NCBI GenBank assembly: GCA_014654705.1
Contig: JACVZY010000037.1
Span: forward strand, 1 to 54,435
Source of the DNA: Ignavibacteria bacterium
GTDB lineage: Bacteria; Bacteroidota; Ignavibacteria; Kapaibacteriales; UBA4661
Direction: 5' to 3'
Length of the DNA: 54,435 nucleotides
Positions 15,552-15,743 of the stretch are shown here, piece by piece (position 1 is the first letter of the stretch; each line of letters opens with the position of its first letter). The notes under the pieces are model-generated. The model worked only from the letters and a program-made list of their open reading frames with translations. It ran no database searches and was not told where the DNA came from. The position numbers were made by a program, and so were the translations under genes.

Positions 15552-15591
15552 AAAAAAAAGCCGTTCCCACAAGTGTCGTGAGAACGGCTTT
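15552..15591 (-). terminator. Attenuator terminator ahead of metY
   Basis: In transcript sense AAAGCCGTTC (15591-15582) pairs perfectly with GAACGGCTTT (15566-15557), and T8 (15559-15552) follows. A CAC/GTG pair can extend into the loop. It lies after the leader ORF stop and 71 bp before the metY start, so it can end transcription before the operon. Its 5' arm overlaps the 10-nt segment CGTTCTCACG (15586-15577), which can instead pair with leader codons 31-34. Confidence 0.85.
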
Positions 15592-15626
15592 AATCAAAAG
15601 TTTCGATGAAATTTTAGGTTTCGATT

Positions 15627-15743
15627 CTATGATTGGTTGAGCACATTCTCACGCCACTGCATACAGCAGCACATCATCATGCACATTTGCATCATGACGG
15701 GCTTTGCAGCAGGAATAGCGATATTGAATTGTGTCGTGGACAT
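15627..15743 (-). CDS. Met/Cys-rich leader peptide of the metYX operon
   Basis: This 38-codon ORF reads from an ATG at 15743 to a TAG at 15627. Residues 17-28 are MMQMCMMMCCCM, so 11 of 12 are Met or Cys; the whole peptide holds 8 Met and 4 Cys. It precedes an intrinsic terminator and the genes for the last sulfur steps toward methionine, the classical layout of a transcription attenuator. Codons 31-34 (CGTGAGAATG, 15653-15644) are complementary to the terminator's 5' arm (15586-15577) over 10 bp with one G-U. It has no Shine-Dalgarno but an A-rich upstream stretch (CAAAAACAG). The peptide itself probably has no other job. It is too short for ordinary gene calling. Confidence 0.8.
   Translation of the reverse strand: MSTTQFNIAIPAAKPVMMQMCMMMCCCMQWRENVLNQS

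Follow-up and report, generated by a model that had tools for sequence, protein, structure and literature searches.

The region preceding metYX in the window (the whole 54,435-nt stretch of DNA that was analysed) is very probably a ribosome-mediated transcription attenuator, which would read the charging of Met-tRNA and Cys-tRNA and would be exchangeable with the SAM-I riboswitch. A short ORF that includes a Met/Cys codon run, an intrinsic terminator and an alternative pairing can be read directly in the DNA, and so can their conservation in relatives and the presence of similar leaders at other sulfur genes. Attenuation, which an earlier note on this DNA had proposed, appears to be the best explanation of this anatomy and of its evolution.

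Anatomy of the metYX leader

The leader ORF comprises 38 codons and a stop codon (positions 15743 to 15627, minus strand, as for all features of the window given below; peptide MSTTQFNIAIPAAKPVMMQMCMMMCCCMQWRENVLNQS) and lies 5' of metY-metX. Codons 17-28 (15695-15660) encode MMQMCMMMCCCM, the proposed stalling site, in which 11 of 12 residues are Met or Cys; the binomial probability of such a run is about 2e-15 under the assumed frequency of 3.7% for Met and Cys together. The intrinsic terminator (15591-15552) consists of a hairpin at 15591-15557 and T8 at 15559-15552, ahead of metY. The hairpin has 16 pairs, a loop of 3 and an energy of -22.7 kcal/mol, and its outer 10 pairs are perfect, which agrees with the 10-bp stem that the earlier note had described together with the Met/Cys ORF. 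The segment of codons 31-34 (15653-15644, CGTGAGAATG), referred to as region 2 and taken as the putative 5' strand of an antiterminator, was found, as had also been claimed, to be complementary with one G-U pair to 15586-15577 (CGTTCTCACG). The latter, region 3, is part of the terminator 5' arm and could pair either with region 2 or with region 4 of the terminator. A further competing pairing had been suggested from the direct repeat GTGTCGTG. Both copies of this repeat exist, but in the near-identical genome G001 the copy in the terminator is CACAACAC (transcribed strand), and because it is not conserved there the repeat was given no role.

The gene metY, encoding O-acetylhomoserine sulfhydrylase (14159-15481), matched TIGR01326 with 676.9 bits, over the cut-off. 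The gene metX, encoding homoserine O-acetyltransferase (13021-14070), matched PRK00175 with 332.3 bits (cut-off 331) and TIGR01392 with 352.8 bits, below the cut-off of 500. The sequence TTGACT - 17 nt - TACATT (15810-15782; 9 of 12 matches to the sigma-70 pattern) is a possible promoter; four promoter-like sites occur in the 501-base stretch around it, and shuffled sequences average 0.7. Rfam includes a T-box model, and a search of the window with 4227 Rfam families revealed no riboswitch or T-box, the sole match being a tRNA. Among the best 80 named MetY relatives kept, the closest was that of Candidatus Kapaibacterium sp. Prado071 (L080; 93% identity over MetY), and the genome was therefore assigned to the Kapaibacterium group within Bacteroidota.

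Conservation of the leader and terminator in the order

The set of relatives comprised 61 genomes, 14 of which carry a metY gene over the TIGR01326 cut-off, and all 14 upstream regions were examined. G048, with a metY truncated where its contig stops, was added afterwards as a test, giving 15 readable metY loci, and G003 was left out because its metY is cut before its start. G009 was counted apart as a 16th locus; it is not an independent test because it was located through its leader.

A short ORF with a Met run or a Met and Cys run was found ahead of metY at all 15 readable loci, as well as in G009, so that the leader for which the earlier note had pointed to related genomes spans families f1, f2, f4, f8 and f10. 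The run peptides included MMQMCMMMCC (G005), CGMMMCMMMC (G008), MMCWSMMMPM (G038), MQSCMMCMCM (G043), MMCMAMCM (G040), CSMCMCMC (G016), CCMMCMCMSC (G052), MCMGMMMRAC (G018) and MSMSMSMCMSMCMCM (G048). A terminator was detected by scan at 15 of 15 loci (the 14 loci over the cut-off and G009), and in G048 a hairpin of -23.0 kcal/mol is followed a few bases later by the start of a T run. By eye, the leader peptides diverge between families beyond their richness in Met and Cys, and since little else is shared, the comparison fits selection on codon content.

Three other features were observed in these leaders. An N-terminal [FL][NH]IA motif (mostly ATATCGC; 15743-15700 in the window) occurs near the leader start and far from the run in eight f1 leaders, in G016 and in the class leader L186, the genomes and loci listed being G001, G002, G004-G007, G009, G016 and L186. 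In G009 (L063:2637-3070), the leader and terminator precede what by eye is a short metY remnant, followed by metX, and the antiterminator pairing is weak. In G016 (L068:995-1293), a second leader-terminator module (MMMCCRMHRPAREEPE) lies between the first module and metY; it pairs poorly (p 0.15).

Alternative pairing between the leader tail and the terminator arm

The sequence lying between the run and the terminator was paired with the terminator 5' arm and compared with 500 dinucleotide shuffles. The results showed p values of at most 0.03 at 13 of 15 loci and of 0.002 in G048, so that the pairing beats the shuffles at 14 of 16 loci, the two misses being G008 (p 0.61) and G009 (p 0.83), the latter with the metY remnant. 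The mean duplex energy was -14.6 kcal/mol for matched partners versus -10.5 kcal/mol for partners mismatched between families.

Compensatory changes, which the earlier note had named as a check of its model, were present as well. Twenty-three modules were compared from a common anchor, taking the pairing register that maximises the pairs. Arm position 4 was paired in 22 of 23 modules by U-G, C-G, U-A or G-C, and five pair types account for the 21 of 23 modules in which position 8 was paired. Within the genus, a single position is C-G in G004, U-A in G005 and U-G in G000. This comparison omits the second modules of G016 and L172, as well as L178, G048 and every peroxiredoxin or cobA module. Under a cruder shuffle control that counts pairs, p was at most 0.05 in 11 of 23 modules.

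When transcripts cut off within the 5' arm were folded, all 15 showed 9-13 pairs between tail and arm, and in only 9 of the 15 did these beat shuffled tails at 0.05. Energy minimisation of the complete leader keeps the terminator even with a ribosome placed in the run; since the full-leader fold favours the terminator, the antiterminator would prevail only by forming earlier, as happens in classical attenuation. In the full-length fold of the window's leader, the run lies inside a local hairpin, at most a candidate for the protector or pause (1:2) hairpin of classical attenuators. Counted from the run, the pairing begins 0-13 nt downstream and the end of the stop codon lies 18-36 nt downstream. 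With these spacings, a ribosome at the stop codon would cover the pairing segment and one waiting early in the run would not.

Proposed mechanism

The proposed sequence of events is as follows. A ribosome would trail RNA polymerase through the leader ORF. If Met-tRNA and Cys-tRNA are charged, it would reach the stop codon and cover region 2 (codons 31-34), region 3 would then pair with region 4, and the resulting terminator would keep metYX off. If Met-tRNA or Cys-tRNA is short, the ribosome would wait on codons 17-28, leaving region 2 free to pair with region 3 before region 4 is made, and polymerase would continue into metYX. Translation of the leader and stalling in the run are predicted; the conserved ORF, terminator and pairing together support the attenuator interpretation. 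Starvation for Met should limit initiator fMet-tRNA too, which would oppose translation of the leader.

Similar leaders at other sulfur clusters

Two further gene clusters of the same genome begin with a leader of this kind. In the first (L060:3579-10363, G000:C118), a Met/Cys leader is followed by genes for a peroxiredoxin, a DUF4395 protein, an O-succinylhomoserine-sulfhydrylase-like (metZ-like) protein, an encapsulin and a cysteine desulfurase. The encapsulin belongs to family 2A (NF041162, 510 bits) and the desulfurase matches its cargo model (NF041166, 876 bits). In the second (L061:2863-17023), a long Met/Cys leader mixing MMM and CCC blocks, as the cobA leaders do, precedes cobA, a flavodoxin/FAD reductase gene (cysJ), a sulfite reductase gene (cysI), CysG-N/TauE and CysH, with CysD further on. 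Judging from gene order, each cluster would form one operon. The similar leaders would then subject sulfate reduction and the peroxiredoxin/encapsulin/cysteine-desulfurase cluster to the same signal as metYX. PMC8346489 describes a Synechococcus family 2A encapsulin that has a cysteine desulfurase inside and increases when cells are starved of sulfur, which is consistent with sulfur control of the encapsulin cluster.

The peroxiredoxin leader was found in five genomes (G000, G001, G002, G004 and G007) and the cobA leader in four (G000, G001, G002 and G009; loci including L061, L062 and L161); a family 2A encapsulin over the cut-off occurs in only 2 of 61 genomes. The peroxiredoxin modules have a hairpin and then T, and their tail-arm pairing gave p of about 0.01 in three of five, the misses being G000 (0.10) and G007 (0.26), where a longer outer stem was taken. 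The three cobA leaders tested gave no intrinsic terminator downstream, and by eye the 12-nt end of the G000 cobA leader (GTGTAACTAAAA) has a perfect complement, TTTTAGTTACAC, further on, which together suggest that another output is possible at the cobA leaders. The cysH gene of G009 (L161) has both the cobA-cysJI cluster and a run; those of f8 (L160, L162 and L163) have no cobA-cysJI cluster and, by scan, no run upstream. Other PLP genes (L164 and L165) have no leader.

Wider scans were also carried out. The exact pattern MMMCCC was found in 3 of 395 genomes across the phylum, including G324 (L078), a scan too narrow to gauge distribution because it covers one exact pattern only. A degenerate Met/Cys-run pattern gave 550 matches genome-wide versus 335 for the reversed control, about the first 100 being listed, and was set aside. 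A profile search with the run peptides gave no matches and missed known leaders too, and its silence is therefore uninformative. Candidates L031, L046 and L047 were rejected as leaders, having no sulfur gene close downstream, and L032, whose frame ends near a peroxiredoxin-like ORF, was not counted.

Relation to the SAM-I riboswitch

At the 16 order loci, no SAM-I or other Rfam riboswitch or T-box was detected at the gathering score (loci L060-L077, L196 and the window; 4227 families). Among named metY loci, of which the best 80 were retained (one from Kapaibacterium, the rest with Bacteroidia-type names), 54 of the 80 carry SAM-I, which bears out the suggestion that the leader is an alternative to SAM riboswitches. 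In two of these loci, L121 and L128, a distance of 600 to 1100 bases separates SAM-I from metY, so that the riboswitch may belong to another gene, and in L088 and L103 the sequence ahead of metY is very short or missing. Many of the SAM-I-less named metY loci show no leader; leaders were seen in, among others, Thermophagus (GMMMGRMSMA) and Labilibacter (MMCCMMMLL).

At 53 of the 54 SAM-I loci, an ATG ORF starts -5 to +15 nt from the 3' end of the aptamer, the distance being 7-11 nt in 48 of the 53. Of these 53 ORFs, 38 contain three or more Cys in their densest ten residues, a figure low by two because L106 and L114 were scored on another ATG than that of the Cys-run ORF, and 7 contain three or more Met. 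The ORF behind SAM-I is possibly a cysteine leader gated by SAM. Any match to an intrinsic terminator after the ORF was seen at 13 of 43 SAM-I loci. Since terminators are rare and mostly weak there, the Cys-run ORFs at these loci were not called transcription attenuators. In densest-ten composition, the 15 order leaders averaged 5.1 Met and 3.4 Cys versus 1.25 and 4.3 at the SAM-I loci (p 2e-9 for Met and 0.08 for Cys, values that ignore relatedness).

Some details of the SAM-I-following ORFs (L082-L159) were also noted. They usually end in a Cys run, such as RMCCCCCC or MCMCCCCC, often with CCCC near the end. In Sphingobacterium (L104, L107, L148, L151 and L158), the ORF lacks a Cys run and has RMR at its end, and by eye L151 and L158 carry GTCGTC past the stop codon with a complement, GACGAC, downstream.

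Within the same class, 28 further metY loci were examined (30 matches minus G000 and G038, already in the order set; G074:C84 and G134:C9 were left out), of which L166 has only 40 bases upstream, so that 27 were usable. SAM-I was present at 19 of the 27. Leaders with at least 6 Met or Cys in 10 residues occurred at 4 of 8 SAM-I-less versus 1 of 19 SAM-I loci (Fisher p 0.017, for which relatedness matters because the four leader loci represent one family with three genera). Two Met-rich leaders stand in tandem ahead of metY in L171, L172, L186 and L190, all four without SAM-I; a terminator was detected by scan in 7 of these 8 modules, and those 7 pair at p of at most 0.03. In L167, one leader-terminator module (p below 0.002) is followed by SAM-I, and L178 has the same arrangement with a weaker leader module (4 of 10, p 0.31). 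These patterns suggest that in the class Met-rich leaders stand mainly where SAM-I is absent and Cys-run leaders where it is present, and that the two devices may substitute for one another or be arranged one after the other.

Proposed signal of the leader

The least improbable of the other explanations, although still unlikely, is that the attenuator works as proposed but only one amino acid, for example Met, is the real signal and the codons of the other are tolerated. The tandem class modules are mostly Met, the leaders behind SAM-I mostly Cys, and among the order leaders the densest ten residues contain one Cys in G038 and two each in G040 and G018, all of which would suit a single signal. 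However, 12 of 15 order leaders contain three or more of each amino acid in their densest ten residues (and all 15 contain three or more Met), and the mixed MMM and CCC blocks of the cobA leaders likewise argue for a double one. Both amino acids would accordingly be read; that each acts separately is the less sure part of this reading.

Within the genus the run is nearly invariant (MMQMCMMMCC), Gln included, and neither this nor the [FL][NH]IA motif is needed by a device that merely counts codons. Met and Cys bind Cu(I) and oxidise easily, and the nascent peptide might therefore sense copper or oxidants by Cu(I) binding or oxidation, upon which the ribosome would stall or be released. The invariant run and the peroxiredoxin gene that begins one target cluster would fit such a sensor. 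It is nevertheless improbable: by eye, no pattern of spacing or residues is kept between families beyond Met/Cys richness, the other targets concern Met synthesis and sulfate assimilation rather than metal export, and the exchange with SAM-I indicates Met supply. Least probable of all is that the ORF encodes a small Met/Cys-rich protein with a function of its own, such as metal buffering, next to a terminator that simply lowers metYX. Strong conservation within the genus and the recurring N-terminal motif would suit such a protein, but the peptides vary greatly from family to family although position, terminator and tail-arm pairing are retained, and tandem copies stand ahead of a single gene.

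Discussion

In the trp, his, thr and ilv attenuators of Proteobacteria, the ribosome stalls at codons of the leader ORF for the scarce amino acid. The metYX leader shares with them a run of regulatory codons, a terminator and an antiterminator formed by codons past the run, and differs in its joint Met and Cys codons, in Met as a regulatory codon, in its Bacteroidota host and in the tandem copies of some relatives. It is thus ordinary in mechanism, being trp/his-like, and unusual in signal. Methionine supply in bacteria is read by SAM riboswitches, T-boxes or repressors, and an attenuator using Met codons is unexpected because Met starvation also affects translation initiation. No Met-codon attenuator was found among the matches listed in a search of open-licence papers, judged by title and the start of the abstract. 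Cysteine attenuation in mycobacteria has reportedly been studied by experiment around 2020.

Leader ORFs with Cys runs are described for actinobacterial cys/cbs operons (PMC1262725, PMC4633059) and, as uORFC-8-2, ahead of cysS in Rhodobacterales, where the ORF ends in a likely terminator (PMC8632094). For the mycobacterial leaders, PMC1262725 states that no terminator hairpins were found. Such leaders share with the metYX leader a short ORF, tandem Cys codons and sulfur or Cys-tRNA genes downstream, and differ in using Cys rather than Met and Cys and in belonging to other phyla. As of 2010, according to PMC2965389, leader-peptide systems beyond Proteobacteria and Actinobacteria were new, the case being a His leader in Firmicutes.

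SAM-I (S box, RF00162) shares with the leader the metY gene, the position in other Bacteroidota and the same question of Met and SAM supply; it differs in binding SAM directly and in needing no translation. The SAM and SAM-Chlorobi motifs appear in the catalogue of PMC3766115. No SAM-I aptamer followed by a Cys-run ORF was found among the matches listed for open-licence papers.

In one phylum, the same gene therefore has either device at the same place and sometimes both in series, and because it carries either, the swap from metabolite sensing to the sensing of tRNA charge is directly testable. The findings also predict that a lineage studied chiefly through metagenomes has a sulfur regulon, which in some species includes a family 2A encapsulin. 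They further suggest that SAM-I of Bacteroidia acts together with a Cys-run ORF just past the end of the riboswitch model. In the broadest form, which is somewhat less likely than not, the metY leaders of Bacteroidota would be interchangeable two-input devices. The ORF of the Kapaibacterium group would integrate Met-tRNA and Cys-tRNA charging and, by way of the similar leaders, run a sulfur regulon that may include an encapsulin sulfur compartment; in Bacteroidia, SAM-I about 7-11 nt ahead of the start of a Cys-run ORF would let SAM gate the translation of a cysteine sensor, and Met codons would enter where the aptamer is missing.
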